NCBI GenBank assembly: GCA_027451885.1
Contig: DAIDHX010000279.1
Location: 1-45,266 of the forward strand
Direction: 5' to 3'
Source: Planctomycetales bacterium
GTDB taxonomy: Bacteria; Planctomycetota; Planctomycetia; Isosphaerales; Isosphaeraceae
DNA length: 45,266 nt
Both the position numbers and the translations under genes were made by a program. The notes beneath the pieces are model-generated. The model was not told the origin of the DNA. It saw only the letters and a program-made list of their open reading frames with translations, and ran no database searches. Below are positions 36,797-45,266 of this stretch, piece after piece. Each line of letters starts with the position of its first letter. Position 1 is the first letter of the stretch.

Positions 36797-37474
36797 ATGG
36801 ACGATCTGGTAGATAAACGTGGCCGCCGTTGCAGTGATGAGGCCATGCAGGCGCGGCGTGAGGAGATCCTTGAAGCTGCAACGGAACTGTTTGCAGAGCA
36901 GGGGTTTTCGGAAACGCTGACGCAGGCTTTGGCGGATCGTCTACAGATTGGCAAGGGCACGATTTACCGGCACTTTCCGAGCAAGTGTGAGCTTTTTCTG
37001 GCCGCGGCGGACCGGGTGATGCAAAAACTGAACCTGGTGGTCGACGCCAGTCTCGAAGGGGTGGTGGATCCGCTGGATCGGCCAGGCCGGGCGATGGCGG
37101 CGTATCTCAGGTTTTTTGCGGAGAATCCTCACTTCGCGGAGATGTTGATTCAGGAGCGGGCGCATTTTCGCGATCGGAAACGGCCGACCTACTTCGAGCA
37201 CCGAGAGCGTACCGTGGTGCGCTGGCGGGAGCTTTATCGGGCGATGATCGAGGCCGGCCGGTTCCGCAACATGCCTGTGGAGCAAATTGTGGACGTGGTT
37301 TCCAGCGCACTCTATGGAACCATGTTTATTAACTATTTTGTTGGGGCGAACAAGTCGCCGGAAACGCAAGCTAAAGACATCATCGACATCGTCTTCAACG
37401 GTGTACTGAGCGACCGCGAGCGGCAGGCGCGAAGCGGCCACGCGGCACGGTCGCATTCAAATCATATGGCGTAA
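36797..37474 (+). CDS. TetR family repressor of the efflux operon
   Basis: This is a 225-residue regulator. The N-terminal DNA-binding domain includes RREEILEAATELFAEQGF (about 20-37) and the helix-turn-helix LTQALADRLQIGKGTIYRHF (41-60) followed by PSK. The C-terminal ligand-binding domain (about 75-205) is helical, with RAMAAYLRFFAENPHFAEML and ALYGTMFINYFVG. The length is typical. It is the first gene of the operon. A perfect inverted repeat overlaps its promoter, and the membrane-fusion gene starts 24 bases after its stop. It likely represses the whole operon and releases DNA on binding a pump substrate. The inducer cannot be predicted. Confidence 0.95.
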   Translation: MDDLVDKRGRRCSDEAMQARREEILEAATELFAEQGFSETLTQALADRLQIGKGTIYRHFPSKCELFLAAADRVMQKLNLVVDASLEGVVDPLDRPGRAMAAYLRFFAENPHFAEMLIQERAHFRDRKRPTYFEHRERTVVRWRELYRAMIEAGRFRNMPVEQIVDVVSSALYGTMFINYFVGANKSPETQAKDIIDIVFNGVLSDRERQARSGHAARSHSNHMA

Positions 37475-37498: not shown

Positions 37499-38821
37499 AT
37501 GAGTCTTCCAAGGGCGCTAGGGATCGTGCTGGTGGTGGCGATTGTGGGCGGCTGCCGCCAGAGCACGCCTCCTGAGCTAAAGCTGCCGGATCCGCGCGTG
37601 GAATTCATGACGCCGGTATCGGGGCAGATCACCGATGTCGCGGAGTTTCCCGGCCTCACCGACGCGCGGATTACCGTCTCGGTTCGTTCCCGCGTTGCCG
37701 GCTACATGACCAAGGTCTACTTCAAGGACGGTTCGAAGGTCGAGGAGAACGACGTTCTCTTTGAGATCGACCCGCGGCCGTACCGCGCTGAGCTGGAACG
37801 GGCCCAGGGCAATCTGGAGCAGATTGAAGCGCACAAGCGGCGGCTCGAGCATGAGTACGAGCGGGCCAAGAAGCTGTATGCGACCCGGTCGATCAGCGTG
37901 GAAGAGTTCGAGCGTTACGAGGGGGACTATCGCGAGACCGAGGCGAACTTGCAGGTGGCCCGCGCCAATCGCGACCTGGCCAAGCTCGACCTGGAATGGA
38001 CCGAGATCCGGGCTCCCGCCTCGGGTTTGCTCTCGCGCAGGCTGGTCGACCCGGGCAACCTGATCAAGGCGGACGAGACGGTTCTGACCACCATCGTGAC
38101 CCAGGATCCGATGTACGTCTACTTTGACGTCGACGAGCAGAACACCCTGCGGGTGCGCAGGCTGATTCGCGAGGGGCATGTGAAGGCGAAGTCGGAAAAG
38201 GAAGTGCCGGTGATGGTGGGGCTTTCGGACGAGGCGCCGAACTTCCCGCACGAGGGCATCGTGGACTTCACCGATAACCGCGTCGACGTGAACACCGGCA
38301 GCTTGCGGTTCCGGGCCATCGTCTCCAATCCCAAAGGGGTGCTCACGCCAGGGCTATTCGCCCGCATTCGCCTGCCGATTGGCGACCCGCATCCCACGCT
38401 CTTCGTCAAGGAAGAGGCGATCGCATCCGACCAGGGGCGCAAGATCGTTTACGTGGTCGAGTCGAAAGCGCCGGCGGGCCAGGCGAAGCCCAAAAGCGGC
38501 TCGGCCGAGCCCAGCGCCCCGGCGAAATCCGATTCCGCCGCGACCGCGCCCAGGCCAGGCGAGCTCGCCGGCAGGATCTCAACCCGCGAGATCAAGATTG
38601 GCACGCTACGCAACGGCTACAGGGCGATCGAGGGGGGGCTCAAGCCTGGGGATCGCGTGGTGGTCAACGGGCTGCAGCGAATCCGGACTGGGATTGACGT
38701 GATCGCCACTGAAATGAAGGACGTCCCCGCGGCTCCGACCGACGTCTCCTTCCAGGAGCACGGACAGGACGAAGCGGTGGGGGGCGTTTCCAAGGGAGCA
38801 GCGCGAAGCTCTTCCCCCTGA
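37499..38821 (+). CDS. RND efflux membrane-fusion lipoprotein (HlyD/AcrA type)
   Basis: This is a 440-residue periplasmic adaptor. The signal MSLPRALGIVLVVAIVGGC has lipobox VGGC with Cys19 lipidated. Domains in order: beta-barrel/lipoyl entry at VEFMTPVSGQITDVAEFPGL; lipoyl half VRSRVAGYMTKVYFKDGSKV; an alpha-hairpin (about 95-160, RAQGNLEQIEAHKRRLEHEY); second lipoyl half LEWTEIRAPASGLLSRRLVD; beta-barrel with VDFTDNRVDVNTGSLRFRA; then a low-complexity Ala/Pro/Lys insertion (about 322-355) before the membrane-proximal domain. The insertion is unusual; AcrA-type proteins have no such linker there. It bridges the RND pump to an outer-membrane channel, but no TolC-like gene is in the window. 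Confidence 0.94.
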   Translation: MSLPRALGIVLVVAIVGGCRQSTPPELKLPDPRVEFMTPVSGQITDVAEFPGLTDARITVSVRSRVAGYMTKVYFKDGSKVEENDVLFEIDPRPYRAELERAQGNLEQIEAHKRRLEHEYERAKKLYATRSISVEEFERYEGDYRETEANLQVARANRDLAKLDLEWTEIRAPASGLLSRRLVDPGNLIKADETVLTTIVTQDPMYVYFDVDEQNTLRVRRLIREGHVKAKSEKEVPVMVGLSDEAPNFPHEGIVDFTDNRVDVNTGSLRFRAIVSNPKGVLTPGLFARIRLPIGDPHPTLFVKEEAIASDQGRKIVYVVESKAPAGQAKPKSGSAEPSAPAKSDSAATAPRPGELAGRISTREIKIGTLRNGYRAIEGGLKPGDRVVVNGLQRIRTGIDVIATEMKDVPAAPTDVSFQEHGQDEAVGGVSKGAARSSSP

Positions 38822-38924: not shown

Positions 38925-41900
38925 GTGTTTTCACGCTTCTTCATCGATCGACCCATTTTTGCGTCGGTGCTCTCGATCGCGATTACCCTGGCGGGGTTGC
39001 TCGCGGCCGTCAATTTGCCGATCGCGCAGTATCCCCAGATCTCGCCTCCCACGGTCTCGGTCGATTGCAATTATCCCGGCGCGAGCGCCCAGGTCGTCGC
39101 CGAAACCGTCGCCGCGCCGATCGAGCAGGAAGTCAACGGCGTCGACAACATGCTTTACATGTCGTCGCAGTGCACCAACGACGGCTCGTACAACCTGACC
39201 GTCACATTCAAGCTGGGGGTCGATCTCAATCTCGCGCAGGTCATGGTGCAAAACCGCGTGGCGCTCGCGCTGCCGCGGCTGCCGGACGTGATCAAGCAAA
39301 CCGGCGTGAACACCAAGAAGCGCTCACCCGACATCCTCATGGCCGTCGGTCTCTACTCGCCTGACAATCGCTACGACCAGCTCTATCTCAGCAACTACGC
39401 CACGATCCATATCCAGCCTGAACTGCAGCGGCTCATCGGCGTGAGCGACATCAACATGCTTGGTCAGCGCGACTACAGCATGCGAATCTGGGTTGATCCA
39501 GACAAGATGTCGGTGCGCGGGGTCACCGCCGGCGATGTGGCCAATGCAATCCGCGAGCAGAATCTCCAGGTGGCGACCGGCCAGGTCGGTCAGCAACCCA
39601 TGGAGCGCGGGCAGCGGACCCAGGTGACCACCCGCACCATGGGCCGGCTGGCCACGCCCGAGCTCTTCGAGGACATCGTCATCAAGACGACGCCCGACGG
39701 CCGGTATCTGAAAATCAAGGATATCGGCCACGTGGAGATCGGCGCCAAGAACAGCGACGTCGATAGCGCGGTCGACGGCAAGCCGAGCGGTAATCTCGCC
39801 GTCTTCCTGCTCCCAGACGCCAATGCGCTCGACACGGCCGACCTGGTCCGGGCCAAGATGGAGGAACTCAGCAAGGATTTCCCCGAAGGCCTCGACTATG
39901 TGATTCGATACGACACCACTCCCTATATTCGAGAGTCGATCTACGAGGTCTTCAAGACCCTGCGCGACGCGGTCATCCTGGTCGCGCTTGTGGTGCTCCT
40001 GTTCCTGCAGAACTGGCGATCCGCGTTGATCCCGCTCGTGGCCGTGCCGGTGGCGATCATCGGCACGTTCGCGGTGATGATCGTGATGGGATTCAGCCTC
40101 AACAACCTGACGCTGTTCGGGCTGGTGCTCGCGATCGGCATCGTGGTCGACGACGCGATCGTGGTGGTCGAGGCCGTGGAGCATCACATCGAGCAGGGGA
40201 TGGCGCCAAGGGCCGCCACGATCCGGGCCATGGAGGAAGTCTCCGCGCCCGTCATCGCGGTCGGGCTTGTGCTCTCGGCCGTGTTCGTCCCCTGCGCCTT
40301 CATCACAGGAATCACGGGTCAGTTCTTCCGCCAGTTCGCGCTCACGATCGCAACCTCGACGATTATTTCTACCTTCAACTCGCTCACGCTCTCGCCAGCG
40401 CTCGCGGCCATCCTGCTCAAGCCCAAGGTCAAGGGATCGCAGCGGGTGTTGCCGACCCTGGGCGTGGCGGCCATCGCGGGGTGGGTTGGGTACGCGCTTC
40501 TCGGCGAGCGAACCGCGCACTGGCTGCCGCGGATCTCAGGCCAGATTCCCCTCGCATGGGCCCCCTGGATCGCCGCCACTCTTGCCGCGGCCGCCGGCCT
40601 CGTTCTGGCGCCCATCATCAACCGAATCCTGAGCTTCTTCTTCGGCGCCTTCAACCGTGGCTTCGACCGCGCAGGCAAGCTCTACACCTCGTGCGTGCGG
40701 ATCATGCTCCGGGGCGCGGTCGTTGTGCTCCTGGTTTACGGCGGCCTGATCTATCTCACCGGGTTTACGCTCAACCATCTCCCCAAAGGCTTCATTCCAT
40801 CGCAGGACATGGGCTACCTGCTCGTCAACGTCCAGCTTCCGGACTCGGCCTCGTCGGAACGAACCTTCCGCGTGATCTCCCGCATGGAAAAGATGGCGCG
40901 AGAGGTCCCCGGCGTCGCCCACACGGTGGCCGTTTCCGGGCAGTCGTTCCTGCTCTCCGCGTTTGGTTCAAACTTCGCCTCCATGTTCATCGTTCTCGAT
41001 GAATTCTCCAAGCGGCCCGAGCCCACCGTCGAGCGCTTCTTCAAATGGCTGAAACAGCCGGAAATCGAGGCCTGGTGCCGCAGGACCTTCGGCATCAAGA
41101 AGCTCGAGTCGCTCGATAGCGACTCCATCGCCAACATCCTCAGGCGCAAGTTCGGGGCGGCGATTCCCGAGGCCATGGTCACCGTGCTGCCGCCGCCGCC
41201 GGTGCGCGGCGTCGGCCGCGCAGGCGGATTCAAGCTCATGATCGAGGACCGGGGCGCGGGCAGCAGCCTCATGATGCTCCAGAACATGACCGACGCGCTC
41301 GTCGAGGAAGGCAGCGATCCGAGGAGAGGAAAAGGACTCACCGGCCTGTCTTCGGTCTTCCGCGCCAATGTTCCCCAGGTGTTCGTCGATCTCAACCGCA
41401 GCTCCGCCCTCATGAAGGAAGTCGACCTCCACGACGTCTTCGATACGCTGCAAATTTACCTGGGTTCGCTCTATGTCAACGATCTCAACCTCTTCGGCCG
41501 CACCTGGCAGGTGATCGTGCAATGCGACGATCGCTTCCGCGACCAGCTTGAGGACGTGCAGCGGCTCAAGGTCAAAAGCCGCAAGGGGACGATGGTGCCG
41601 CTGGGCTCGCTCGCCAATATCGAGATGCGCAACGGCCCCTTCGTTCTTACACGCTATAATATGTACACGGCTTCTTTTATCACCGGGAGCTCGACCCCTG
41701 GCTTCAGCTCGCGGTCGGCGATCGATACCATGGACGCCTTCGCCGCCGCCGTGCTGCCGGGGACCATGGCCACCGAATGGACCGAGATGGCGTTCCTCGA
41801 GCTCCAGGCCGGCAACACCGCGATGATCATCTTCGGCTTCGCGGTCGTGATGGTGTTCCTGGTGCTTGCCGCCCAGTACGAAAGCTGGTCGCTCCCCCTG

Positions 41901-42455
41901 GCGGTGATTCTGGTCGTGCCCATGTGCCTCTTAAGCGCGGGGGCGGGCATCGCCGTTTCCGCCACCGATGTGAATATCTTCAGCCAGATCGGCTTCGTGG
42001 TGCTCGTCGGCCTGGCGAGCAAGAACGCGATCCTGATCGTCGAGTTCGCCAAGGTCAACCGGCTCATGGGCCTATCGATCAAGGAGGCCACGCTCGAGGC
42101 GTGCCGCTTGCGGCTGCGCCCAATCGTGATGACCTCGGTCGCGTTCATTCTGGGCGTTGTGCCCCTCTTGCTCTCCTCAGGCGCGGGAGCCGAGATGCGG
42201 CGCACCCTGGGCACGGCTGTTTTCTCAGGCATGCTGGGCGTCACCCTCTTCGGCGTCGTGCTCACGCCCGTCTTCTTTTTTGTCATCGAATGGGTGAGCG
42301 AGACCAGGCTGTTCACAACCGGACCGCTCCACGCCATCGCCGACTTCGCGCTTGTGCTCGTGAGCCCCAGACGCATGCTCCGCAGGGTCCGCGATCGCGC
42401 GGTTTCCAACCGCATACAGCCCGAACAAACCCCCGCGTCCCGCGAAGAGGAGTGA
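38925..42455 (+). CDS. RND efflux permease (HAE1/AcrB family), first copy
   Basis: This 1,176-residue proton-driven transporter is about 130 longer than AcrB. It starts at a GTG: MFSRFFIDRPIFASVLSI. The proton-relay aspartates are present in helix 4 (LAIGIVVDDAIVVVE). Porter-domain segments include GVDNMLYMSSQ and GASAQVVAETVAAPIEQEV. Two insertions explain the extra length. One at about residues 498-585 follows LLKP and contains two more hydrophobic segments, VLPTLGVAAIAGWVGYALLG and WAPWIAATLAAAAGLVLAPI. The second, of roughly 35 residues, falls near 700-735 within the second porter half (VERFFKWLKQPEIEAWCRRT). The second RND gene follows after seven bases. It probably acts as a homo- or hetero-trimer with its neighbour. 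Substrates are unknown. Confidence 0.94.
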   Translation: MFSRFFIDRPIFASVLSIAITLAGLLAAVNLPIAQYPQISPPTVSVDCNYPGASAQVVAETVAAPIEQEVNGVDNMLYMSSQCTNDGSYNLTVTFKLGVDLNLAQVMVQNRVALALPRLPDVIKQTGVNTKKRSPDILMAVGLYSPDNRYDQLYLSNYATIHIQPELQRLIGVSDINMLGQRDYSMRIWVDPDKMSVRGVTAGDVANAIREQNLQVATGQVGQQPMERGQRTQVTTRTMGRLATPELFEDIVIKTTPDGRYLKIKDIGHVEIGAKNSDVDSAVDGKPSGNLAVFLLPDANALDTADLVRAKMEELSKDFPEGLDYVIRYDTTPYIRESIYEVFKTLRDAVILVALVVLLFLQNWRSALIPLVAVPVAIIGTFAVMIVMGFSLNNLTLFGLVLAIGIVVDDAIVVVEAVEHHIEQGMAPRAATIRAMEEVSAPVIAVGLVLSAVFVPCAFITGITGQFFRQFALTIATSTIISTFNSLTLSPALAAILLKPKVKGSQRVLPTLGVAAIAGWVGYALLGERTAHWLPRISGQIPLAWAPWIAATLAAAAGLVLAPIINRILSFFFGAFNRGFDRAGKLYTSCVRIMLRGAVVVLLVYGGLIYLTGFTLNHLPKGFIPSQDMGYLLVNVQLPDSASSERTFRVISRMEKMAREVPGVAHTVAVSGQSFLLSAFGSNFASMFIVLDEFSKRPEPTVERFFKWLKQPEIEAWCRRTFGIKKLESLDSDSIANILRRKFGAAIPEAMVTVLPPPPVRGVGRAGGFKLMIEDRGAGSSLMMLQNMTDALVEEGSDPRRGKGLTGLSSVFRANVPQVFVDLNRSSALMKEVDLHDVFDTLQIYLGSLYVNDLNLFGRTWQVIVQCDDRFRDQLEDVQRLKVKSRKGTMVPLGSLANIEMRNGPFVLTRYNMYTASFITGSSTPGFSSRSAIDTMDAFAAAVLPGTMATEWTEMAFLELQAGNTAMIIFGFAVVMVFLVLAAQYESWSLPLAVILVVPMCLLSAGAGIAVSATDVNIFSQIGFVVLVGLASKNAILIVEFAKVNRLMGLSIKEATLEACRLRLRPIVMTSVAFILGVVPLLLSSGAGAEMRRTLGTAVFSGMLGVTLFGVVLTPVFFFVIEWVSETRLFTTGPLHAIADFALVLVSPRRMLRRVRDRAVSNRIQPEQTPASREEE

Positions 42456-42462
42456 GCAACAC

Positions 42463-45266
42463 GTGTTTTCGCGATTCTTCATCGATCGGCCGATCTTCGC
42501 CTCGGTCCTTTCGATCGTCGTTGTGCTCGCAGGCGGGCTCGCCGCCTTCGGGTTGCCGATCGCCCAGTATCCCGAGATCACTCCCCCCACCGTCGAGGTC
42601 GCGGCCTACTACCCAGGCGCCAATGCTCAGGTCGTGGCCGATACCGTCGCCGCCCCCATCGAGCAAAATGTCAACGGCGTCGAGAACATGCTCTACATGT
42701 CCTCGCAATGCACCAACGACGGCACCTACACCCTCACCGTCACCTTCCGCCTGGGCATGGACCTGAACATGGCCCAGGTGCTCGTGCAAAACAAGGTCTC
42801 GCTCGCCGAGCCGATCCTGCCCGACCTCGTCAAGCGCAGGGGCGTGGCCGTCAAGAAAAAGTCGCCGTCCGTGCTCATGATGATCAACCTGTTCTCGCCC
42901 GATGACAGCCGAGATAGTCTTTATATGAGCAATTACGCAACGATTCAGCTCAAGGACGAGCTGGCGCGGCTCGAGGGCGTGGGCGACATCACCTACATCG
43001 GCCAGCGCGACTACAGCATGCGGGTCTGGGTCGACCCGCAAAGGATGGCCTTCCGCAGCTTGACCGCGGCCGACGTCACCAGCGCCATCACCCAGCAAAA
43101 CATCCAGGTGGCGGCCGGCCGGCTCGGCCAGCCCCCCGCGCCCCGCGGCCAGGTGTTTCAGTACACCATCAGCACCCTGGGGCGACTGGTCGACGTCGAT
43201 CAGTTCCGCGACATGATTCTCAAAACCGACGCCGAGGGGCGCGTGGTGCGGCTCAAGGACGTCGCCGAGGTCGAGCTAGGCGCCCGCGAATACGACCAGG
43301 AATGCACGCTCGACGGCCACCCCTCGGTCGCGCTCTCGGTCTATCAACGCCCTGGCTCGAACGCCTTCGAAACCGCCCAGGCCGTGCGCGATAAGATGGA
43401 AGAGCTCAAGTCGCGCTTCCCCACCGGGCTTGATTATCAGATCGTCTACGACACCACGCCGTTCATTCGCGAGTCGGTTCTCGAAGTGCTCAAGACCCTG
43501 CGCGACGCGGTCATCCTGGTCGCGCTTGTGGTGCTTCTGTTCCTGCAGAACTGGCGATCCGCGCTGATCCCGCTGGTGGCCGTGCCGGTGGCGATCATCG
43601 GCACCTTCGCGGTGATGGCGGCCATCGGCTTCTCGCTCAATAACCTCACCCTGTTCGGGCTGGTGCTCGCGATCGGCATCGTGGTCGACGATGCGATCGT
43701 GGTGGTCGAGGCCGTCGAGCACCACATCGAGCACGGCATGGCGCCCCGCGAGGCCACGATCCTGGCGATGCAACAGGTGTCATCCCCCGTGATCGCCGTC
43801 GGTCTTGTGCTCACCGCCGTGTTCACGCCGTGCGCATTCATCACCGGGATCACAGGGCAGTTTTACCGCCAGTTCGCGCTTACGATCGCCACCTCGACCG
43901 TGCTCTCCGCGTTCAATTCGCTCACCCTGTCGCCAGCGCTCGCCGCCCTGTTGCTCAAGCCGCGCAAGAAGGGCGTCTACCAGACGCTCCCCTGGCCGGC
44001 CTTCGTGGCGCTCTTCGCCTGGGCAGGTTACGCCTGGCTCGCTCCTCAGATCCAGAGCCATTACGGCGAGATGATCAGCCGCGCTCTCGCCCCCGCGCTC
44101 GAGAAACTCCCGGTGCCTGTGCTCGACAAGCTCGCCGTGCCCGCGCTCGGCTTGCTCCTGGGCGCCATCGTGGGCGCCATCGCCATCAAGCCGCTCAATT
44201 TCCTCTTCGGAAGCCTGTTCCATCTGTTCAACCTGGGCTTCGACGGTGCAACCCGCGTCTATACTCGCGTGGTTGGCGGGCTGCTCCGGGTTTCGGTGGT
44301 CGTGCTCGTGCTGTATGGCGGCCTGCTCGGGCTCACGTATTACAGCTTCACCAATGCCCCCAGCGGTTTCATCCCCGCGCAGGATAAAGGCTATCTGCTG
44401 CTCAATGTGCAGCTTCCGGATTCGTCCTCGCTCGAGCGCACCAAGGCGGTCATGCTCGATATCGAGCGGCAGGCACGCGCGCTCCCCGGCGTTTCCCACA
44501 CCGTTGCCATCGCCGGCCAGTCGATGCTCCTGAACGCCAACGCGCCTAACTTCGGCTCGATGTACGTCATGCTCGACGAGTTCCATCACCGCGCGGAGCA
44601 CGGCCTCACCAGCCGCTTGATCGCACGCCGGCTCGAGAGAGCCATGTCCGCGGAAGTCGGCGAGGGCGCGGCCAACGTCTTCGAGGCTCCCGCCGTCGAC
44701 GGCCTGGGCACGGCCGGCGGCTTCAAGATCATCCTCCAGGACCGCGGCAACCTGGGCATGAACGCCCTCGAAAACGTCGCCGATGGCATCGTGGCCCGGG
44801 GGGTGAACGACCCCATGCTCACGAGCATGTCCTCGAACTTCCGCGCCCACACACCCTGGCTCGACCTCAAAATCGACCGCACCAAAACCAGGCTCCTCGG
44901 CGTGTCCATCGCCGAGCTCTTCAACACGCTCCAGGTGTATCTGGGATCACTCTATGTCAATGATTTCAACCTCTTCGGCCGAACCTGGCAGGTGAACGTG
45001 CAGGGCAAGTCGGAATTCCGCACCCAGATCGCCGACCTGGCCCAGCTCAAGGTGCGCAGCGAACGCGGCGGCATGGTGCCCCTGGGCAGCATGGCCGAAA
45101 TCATCGACGTCTCGGGCCCCGTGCTCATCATGCGCTATAACATGTATCCCGCCGCCGCGATCAACAGCGATAGCGCGCCCGGCGTGAGCTCAGGCGCCGC
45201 GATCGAGCGCATCCAGAAAGTCGCCGAGACCGACCTGCCCATCGCCATGCGCACCCAGTGGACCGA
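42463..45266 (+). CDS. RND efflux permease, second copy (cut at window end)
   Basis: The GTG at 42463 is preceded by GAGGAG, which lies in the last codons of the first permease gene. About 934 residues are visible and the C-terminal membrane half continues beyond the window. It begins MFSRFFIDRPIFASVLSIVV, like the first copy. It has the same proton-relay motif (IGIVVDDAIVVVE), and a similar hydrophobic insertion of about 90 residues after LLKP (AFVALFAWAGYAWLAPQ, ALGLLLGAIVGAIAIKPL). It lacks the second insertion of the first copy. The proteins are collinear without gaps for the first 430 residues, and one DNA patch is nearly identical. Tandem RND pairs may form heterotrimers (MdtBC-like) or have diverged in substrate. 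Confidence 0.93.
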   Translation, partial: MFSRFFIDRPIFASVLSIVVVLAGGLAAFGLPIAQYPEITPPTVEVAAYYPGANAQVVADTVAAPIEQNVNGVENMLYMSSQCTNDGTYTLTVTFRLGMDLNMAQVLVQNKVSLAEPILPDLVKRRGVAVKKKSPSVLMMINLFSPDDSRDSLYMSNYATIQLKDELARLEGVGDITYIGQRDYSMRVWVDPQRMAFRSLTAADVTSAITQQNIQVAAGRLGQPPAPRGQVFQYTISTLGRLVDVDQFRDMILKTDAEGRVVRLKDVAEVELGAREYDQECTLDGHPSVALSVYQRPGSNAFETAQAVRDKMEELKSRFPTGLDYQIVYDTTPFIRESVLEVLKTLRDAVILVALVVLLFLQNWRSALIPLVAVPVAIIGTFAVMAAIGFSLNNLTLFGLVLAIGIVVDDAIVVVEAVEHHIEHGMAPREATILAMQQVSSPVIAVGLVLTAVFTPCAFITGITGQFYRQFALTIATSTVLSAFNSLTLSPALAALLLKPRKKGVYQTLPWPAFVALFAWAGYAWLAPQIQSHYGEMISRALAPALEKLPVPVLDKLAVPALGLLLGAIVGAIAIKPLNFLFGSLFHLFNLGFDGATRVYTRVVGGLLRVSVVVLVLYGGLLGLTYYSFTNAPSGFIPAQDKGYLLLNVQLPDSSSLERTKAVMLDIERQARALPGVSHTVAIAGQSMLLNANAPNFGSMYVMLDEFHHRAEHGLTSRLIARRLERAMSAEVGEGAANVFEAPAVDGLGTAGGFKIILQDRGNLGMNALENVADGIVARGVNDPMLTSMSSNFRAHTPWLDLKIDRTKTRLLGVSIAELFNTLQVYLGSLYVNDFNLFGRTWQVNVQGKSEFRTQIADLAQLKVRSERGGMVPLGSMAEIIDVSGPVLIMRYNMYPAAAINSDSAPGVSSGAAIERIQKVAETDLPIAMRTQWT

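Follow-up and report, generated by a model that had tools for sequence, protein, structure and literature searches.

Short homogenized tracts in tandem RND permease genes of a planctomycete suggest recurrent gene conversion within one transmembrane block

Two tandem RND permease genes of a planctomycete, here called A and B, share a patch of nearly identical DNA that is very probably the footprint of partial, nonreciprocal recombination (gene conversion) between them. They are paralogues of long standing, and A and B each have separate orthologues within the family. Within codons 343 to 384 and 397 to 419, the two copies are closer to each other than to their orthologues, synonymous sites included, and outside this bounded stretch each copy is again orthologue-like, a pattern that corresponds to concerted evolution. 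The tracts are short, homogenized at synonymous sites, and sharp edged, and similar ones are seen in other genomes, for the most part inside codons 342 to 500.

The window, i.e., the whole stretch of DNA that was analyzed, is one whole contig of 45,266 bases from a 6.18-Mb genome (G000) assembled in 316 contigs. Its plus strand carries, in a row, a TetR-type regulator gene 5' of the pump genes (36797 to 37474; PF00440, E = 2.3e-17), an RND periplasmic adaptor (membrane fusion) gene (37499 to 38821; TIGR01730, 238.9 bits, cutoff of 94.9), permease gene A (38925 to 42455; 1,176 amino acids), and permease gene B (42463 to 45264), which is cut by the contig end and leaves 934 amino acids within the window. 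Gene A encodes an AcrB/OqxB-like RND permease, passing NF000282 (1270.1 bits; cutoff of 1250), TIGR00915 (1050.9; cutoff of 940.35), and PF00873. The truncated gene B is also AcrB/OqxB-like; it passes PF00873 (853.2 bits) and no NCBIfam cutoff, its scores of 1064.7 for NF000282 and 897.4 for TIGR00915 lying below the thresholds, as expected for a truncated copy. Both genes also exceed the weak MMPL and SecD_SecF_C Pfam cutoffs, and we take them to be of the HAE1 type. The MdtB/MuxB and MdtC equivalog models, with cutoffs of 1584 and 1774, gave only 422 and 455 bits for gene A and 353 and 366 bits for the truncated gene B. Another sequence of the genome (G000:C130:1-525, L099/L005) opens with a frame 69% identical to residues 955 to 1129 of gene A; it may be the part that gene B, cut at position 45264, lacks. 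The RND repertoire of this genome is large, with 33 stretches matching the RND permease at E ≤ 0.001 on at least 17 contigs, several of them being pieces of one gene.

A first-pass annotation of this DNA had described positions 39952 to 40207 and 43490 to 43745 as nearly identical, in exact register, and bordered by far more diverged flanks. These observations were confirmed. The starts of genes A and B lie 3,538 bases apart, the two copies of the patch lie at the same offset, and 234 of their 256 bases match (0.914); when starts from 38925 to 40479 were scanned, 39952 to 40207 was the best 256-base window at this offset. The adjacent 256-base windows match at 154/256 positions (60%) upstream and 184/256 (72%) downstream, the downstream flank being the less diverged of the two. 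Near identity does not, however, extend over a single 255-base patch as described, since two tracts of 97% identity (125 and 69 bases) flank a 36-base island of 64%. On the plus strand, the first converted tract (codons 343 to 384) spans 39952 to 40076 in gene A and 43490 to 43614 in gene B, with 121/125 matches. The unconverted island (codons 385 to 396) spans 40077 to 40112 and 43615 to 43650 (23/36 matches), and the second converted tract (codons 397 to 419, in TM4) spans 40113 to 40181 and 43651 to 43719 (67/69 matches). The end of the patch, 40182 to 40207, has 23/26 matches. Over codons 342 to 427, the two proteins differ at five amino acids, three of which fall within the island. The likeness includes synonymous sites, as had been noted; among codons for the same amino acid, 67/81 are identical in the patch versus 260/448 in the rest of codons 1 to 929.

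Because the patch had been chosen before any test, an uncorrected p of 0.00015 was set aside in favor of a scan-corrected value. The scan permutes matches inside amino-acid classes and thereby allows for protein conservation, the codon bias of the pair, and the choice of place. For the window pair, it gave p = 0.0125 (65/80 in codons 345 to 432 versus 252/440) and, on a second alignment, p = 0.0055. Identical A-B runs of at least 25 bases total 143 bases (p = 0.0004), the longest being 46 bases (p = 0.017). Synonymous divergence is not uniform along the two genes (uniform divergence being the outcome that the first-pass annotation had set against its own reading), and identity at synonymous sites exceeds what constraint and codon bias account for.

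The first-pass annotation had also proposed a comparison with orthologous pairs, which we made with 34 tandem pairs from relatives, among the matches listed. Here, A0 and B0 are the copies of the window genome, and G001 and G002 provided further copies. Outside the patch, A0 is nearest to A of G001 (nucleotide identity of 0.746) and B0 to B of G001 (0.799), with A-B identity at 0.628. Inside the patch, A-B identity rises to 0.907, above A0-A of G001 (0.880) and B0-B of G001 (0.860); the orthologue closest to B0, B of G006, also stays below it (0.891). At the upstream edge, and again at the island, the nearest copy switches abruptly between paralogue and orthologue. In codons 300 to 342, A0-B0 identity is 0.643, versus 0.767 for A0-A and 0.829 for B0-B of G001; in codons 343 to 384, the same comparisons give 0.960, 0.881, and 0.849, and all other comparisons among the G000, G001, and G002 copies reach at most 0.881. 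Within the island, B0 is nearest to B orthologues (0.833 and 0.889) and A0 to A of G001 (0.750). In the second tract, A0 and B0 are again closest (0.971, versus at most 0.928 to the G001 and G002 copies). A donor test on 15 informative sites of the first tract found seven that match A of G001, five that match B, and three that match neither, a split that singles out neither gene as the donor.

Pooled counts and trees were based on the first pairs of 19 genomes in the same family as the window; 11 second pairs and five pairs from outside this family were not included. Among the 37 other sequences, the tandem partner comes closest for 16/38 genes in codons 342 to 427 (both G000 copies included), for 12/38 in codons 428 to 500, and for 0/38 in the rest. 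Among codons for the same amino acid, the fraction identical between A and B of one genome is 0.726 in codons 342 to 427, 0.682 in codons 428 to 500, and 0.597 elsewhere; between A orthologues, it is 0.541, 0.520, and 0.545, respectively. Within-pair fractions exceed orthologue fractions by +0.11 to +0.23 in the eight 20-codon bins of codons 342 to 500 and differ from them by -0.05 to +0.11 in the bins outside. This region of recurrent conversion corresponds to 39948 to 40424 in gene A and, in register at +3,538, to 43486 to 43962 in gene B (both plus strand).

The trees were discordant along the genes. The tree of the rest (codons 1 to 341 and 501 to 929) splits A from B with an SH-aLRT of 100 and contains none of the 19 possible A-B sister pairs. 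The patch tree of 38 sequences lacks this split and contains five of 19, with bootstrap/SH-aLRT values of 97/94 for G004, 100/98 for G019, 99/83 for G030, 100/100 for G022, and 34/92 for the window pair, G000, whose bootstrap is weak. Six A-B sister pairs appear in the tree of codons 342 to 500, and G000 is not among them, although its A-B grouping over these codons is not rejected (p = 0.314). An A clade is rejected by the AU test for the patch (p = 1.1e-5, at a cost of 191 log units) and for codons 342 to 500 (p = 5.7e-8). A smaller tree gave 98/98 for the G000 pair, which we treat as weaker evidence since that tree did not include G001, the nearest relative of G000. The A and B copies of genus g14 still form separate clades even over codons 342 to 500. 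As the A and the B copies of the second pairs were not recovered as clades, we do not claim an independent duplication for these pairs.

The family search covered 39 genomes, six of them new, and tandem pairs were counted among the matches listed, so that weaker pairs may exist. Two genomes in which gene B is split over contigs (G002 and G017) and one in which only A is readable (G026) did not enter the tests of pairs, and A of G002 served as an orthologue control. Pieces on separate contigs were not taken as pairs (G005, G008, G020, and the first pair of G031), and neither were two partial matches on one 3.6-kb contig of G012. The scan was significant for 19/35 tandem pairs, and 16 of these centered in codons 342 to 500; three centered elsewhere, and the other 16 pairs had no significant window. 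Among the controls, 7/68 were significant (2/24 orthologue comparisons and 5/44 same-genome nontandem RND comparisons, the latter from 11 other genomes), and none of these centered in codons 342 to 500, where some nonsignificant controls do center. An uncorrected test of codons 342 to 427 was raised in 4/44 nontandem comparisons (G006, G025, G029, and G047; p = 0.017 to 0.041). Assemblies of 3 to 5 contigs are also among those with significant tandem pairs (G022, G025, G029, and G036). Four pairs fetched later were all scan significant, three in codons 342 to 500 and G062 in codons 17 to 95; for comparison, codons 342 to 500 hold 138/520 usable codons in the window pair (about a quarter), and their share in these four pairs is about a fifth. 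With the region fixed at codons 342 to 500, two of five later pairs were significant, G060p2 (p = 0.0015) and the partly readable G059 (72/83 versus 64.8 expected; p = 0.016), and G063 (0.07), G061 (0.30), and G062 (0.50) were not.

Quartets of two same-genus genomes gave a further view; some genomes enter more than one quartet, and not every quartet is an independent case. In codons 342 to 427, concerted codon patterns outnumbered orthologous ones in 8/11 quartets, e.g., 13:1 in G016/G030 and 6:2 in G000/G001. The exceptions were G011/G028 (3:9), G011p2/G028p2 (1:15), and G018p2/G031p2 (2:9). Outside codons 342 to 500, concerted patterns led in only 1/11 (G029/G036, 23:20); the two kinds were equally frequent in G016/G030, and G000/G001 had 17 concerted versus 32 orthologous patterns. 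In the second tandem pairs of 11 genomes (p2, the tandem pair ranked second in its genome, a class that may lump different paralogues), the concerted fraction was 0.88 in codons 401 to 420 and 0.85 in codons 461 to 480, and it was also 0.80 in codons 261 to 280. Among 69 loci from named records (L101 to L169), there were seven candidate tandem places. One of them, L144, seems to be an artefact of overlapping reading frames, and L101 is apparently the same contig as G001:C465. An excess in codons 342 to 500 was found for L103 (p = 0.0054) and was not significant at 0.05 for L102, L104, L105, and Escherichia coli mdtBC. The strongest window lies outside codons 342 to 500 in tandem pairs L082 (codons 87 to 117), L093 (27 to 119), L092 (241 to 294), and L172 (17 to 95).

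The converted block carries part of the proton relay. By AcrB-like numbering of residues and helices, anchored by alignment to a solved RND permease, we take codons 342 to 500 to be approximately TM2 to TM6, the relay set to be AcrB D407, D408, K940, R971, and T978, and Asp409-Asp410 of gene A to be the equivalents of AcrB Asp407/Asp408. These paired aspartates of TM4 are encoded at 40149 to 40154 in gene A and at 43687 to 43692 in gene B (plus strand) and are D/D in 19/19 A proteins and 19/19 B proteins. All five relay residues are present in 19/19 A proteins, and the other three in the 17/17 readable B proteins; the equivalents of K940, R971, and T978 lie outside the readable part of the window's truncated B. 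Columns in which A and B proteins use disjoint residues number 0/159 in codons 342 to 500, 23/221 in codons 121 to 341, and 6/168 in codons 961 to 1128. Codons 501 to 560, directly after the block, are diverged, with A-B identity at 0.31.

The first-pass annotation had left the choice between gene conversion and very strong local constraint. The discordant trees, the paralogues closer than orthologues only in the patch, the sharp edges, and the recurrence support gene conversion. We propose that the periplasmic parts diverged once the gene had been duplicated in tandem, and that TM2 to TM6 stayed so similar in protein that their DNA remained close enough for the two copies, 3.5 kb from each other, to recombine by homology. 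A conversion event would renew the identity on which later events depend. The exchange would be tolerated because half of the proton relay lies in the converted helices and both proteins keep its residues. A process limited by homology fits the data, since bins of 20 codons with higher local amino-acid identity show more excess (Spearman 0.64) and codons 342 to 500 are the longest well-conserved block, with diverged sequence next to it.

Within gene conversion, it is also possible, though we hold it the less likely option, that selection confines and maintains the exchange, the two permeases cooperating (e.g., in a mixed trimer like MdtB2C1) and needing a common proton-relay half. Nine 60-codon windows have A-B amino-acid identity of at least 0.70; the five in codons 331 to 510 show an excess of 0.14 to 0.21, and the four others (codons 31 to 120 and 1021 to 1110) show only 0.06 to 0.09. 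The lack of disjoint A/B columns in the block, compared with 6/168 in codons 961 to 1128, points the same way, as does the mixed-trimer precedent of MdtBC (PMC7015380). Against selection, the excess also follows amino-acid identity and the block is the longest conserved one, so that homology alone could account for the confinement, and E. coli mdtBC, itself a mixed trimer, has no excess (45/94 versus 42.0 expected; p = 0.28). A more specific and still more tentative proposal is that the tandem RND pairs of this planctomycete family and its relatives form two-subunit pumps, in which selection on conversion might keep the TM2-to-TM6 proton-relay half as a shared, repeatedly exchanged module as the periplasmic substrate and docking parts diverge.

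Local constraint on DNA or RNA, such as a structure, a hidden signal, or an overlapping gene that keeps the copies alike, appears very improbable. The protein is indeed highly conserved here, with A-B identity of 0.86 between genomes in codons 342 to 427, and long antisense frames overlie the stretch. A-A pairs of the window's genus are also mildly raised in these codons (three pairs, uncorrected p = 0.016, 0.023, and 0.035), the G000/G001 pair having 56/76 identical codons versus 47.6 expected (p = 0.016); the B-B comparison of the same genomes is not raised (51/79 versus 53.2 expected; p = 0.77). A constraint must act on orthologues too, so the flat orthologue fractions speak against it. Over the 19 genomes, codons 342 to 427 and the remainder give 0.541 versus 0.545 for A-A, 0.533 versus 0.552 for B-B, and 0.535 versus 0.533 for A-B pairs from different genomes. 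On these pooled counts, the constraint offered as an alternative by the first-pass annotation is not supported, codon sharing between orthologues being no higher in the patch than outside it. The antisense frames themselves (minus strand, up to 398 amino acids, across both RND genes at 38925 to 45264) are taken for side effects of base composition.

Shared genome codon bias, which makes conserved stretches look alike, is slightly less probable again. In its favor, the A-B same-codon fraction outside the region is 0.597 within genomes versus 0.533 between genomes, but the permutation is stratified by amino acid and none of the significant nontandem comparisons centered in codons 342 to 500. In G030, A and B share 75/82 codons, but only 22 to 26 of 59 to 60 with the genome's own second pair, and in G000, neither A nor B exceeds expectation when compared with another RND gene, on C127 (25/48 versus 24.1 and 26.3 expected). 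Misplacement of reads from one copy into the other during assembly is the least probable reading. The genome is fragmented and gene B runs off the contig, but the tracts differ by 4 and 2 mismatches and the same pattern occurs in the assemblies of 3 to 5 contigs.

Gene conversion, the reading that we prefer, is an ordinary process with domain-limited cases known elsewhere, and it is replicated here across genomes. It would restrain divergence in part of a duplicated pump as the remainder goes on diverging. For bacteria, this provides a case from many genomes in which conversion is largely restricted to a single functional block of a transporter, and it allows one to ask whether DNA identity is enough to explain the restriction or whether selection is behind it. 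Trees built from the TM2-to-TM6 block of RND permeases can misplace tandem paralogues. Among the known cases is that of TLR1/TLR6 in mammals, whose recombination machinery differs from that here.

According to the available parts of the respective reports, nearly the same C-terminal region of TLR1/TLR6 was converted independently in nine species (PMC2077338); these are likewise tandem membrane-protein paralogues with an orthologue-like N-terminal part, but a different protein, an animal receptor. The mtrA-1/mtrA-2 genes of methanogens are paralogues in one operon in which long-lasting gene conversion homogenized one domain (PMC4632066), and they resemble A and B in having a converted part and a distinct other part; unlike here, they encode an archaeal methyltransferase subunit, and the converted domain is not in the membrane, as opposed to a transmembrane block. 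The bacterial release factor paralogues RF1/RF2 show conversion confined to a domain of shared function in two reported cases of opposite direction (PMC4530459); the available part of that source makes no mention of a tandem arrangement like that of A and B. MdtB/MdtC and MuxB/MuxC are two-permease RND pumps, MdtBC forming a mixed trimer, and the terms "gene conversion" and "recombination" are absent from the text of the MdtBC paper (PMC7015380). In E. coli, as here, two homologous RND permease genes (mdtBC) come after an adaptor gene, but these lack a conversion signal and have a lower amino-acid identity in the block (0.63), and the window genes lie far under the MdtB and MdtC model cutoffs. 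A Burkholderia RND paper mentions a tandem pair, and the word "recombination" is absent from it (PMC2891726). Among the papers listed in searches of the open-access literature, we found no report of gene conversion in RND permeases, which is no proof of absence.

Likeness was also observed between loci that are not tandem partners. In G029, the first and second pairs (L062 versus L086) are identical at 23 to 25 of 25 codons in about codons 391 to 419, in all four combinations; the scan was not significant, and conversion between the two pairs is possible. In G018, gene A (L073) and gene B of the second pair (L091) have 28/30 same-amino-acid codons identical in codons 675 to 775 (scan p = 0.001), possibly reflecting conversion between distant loci.
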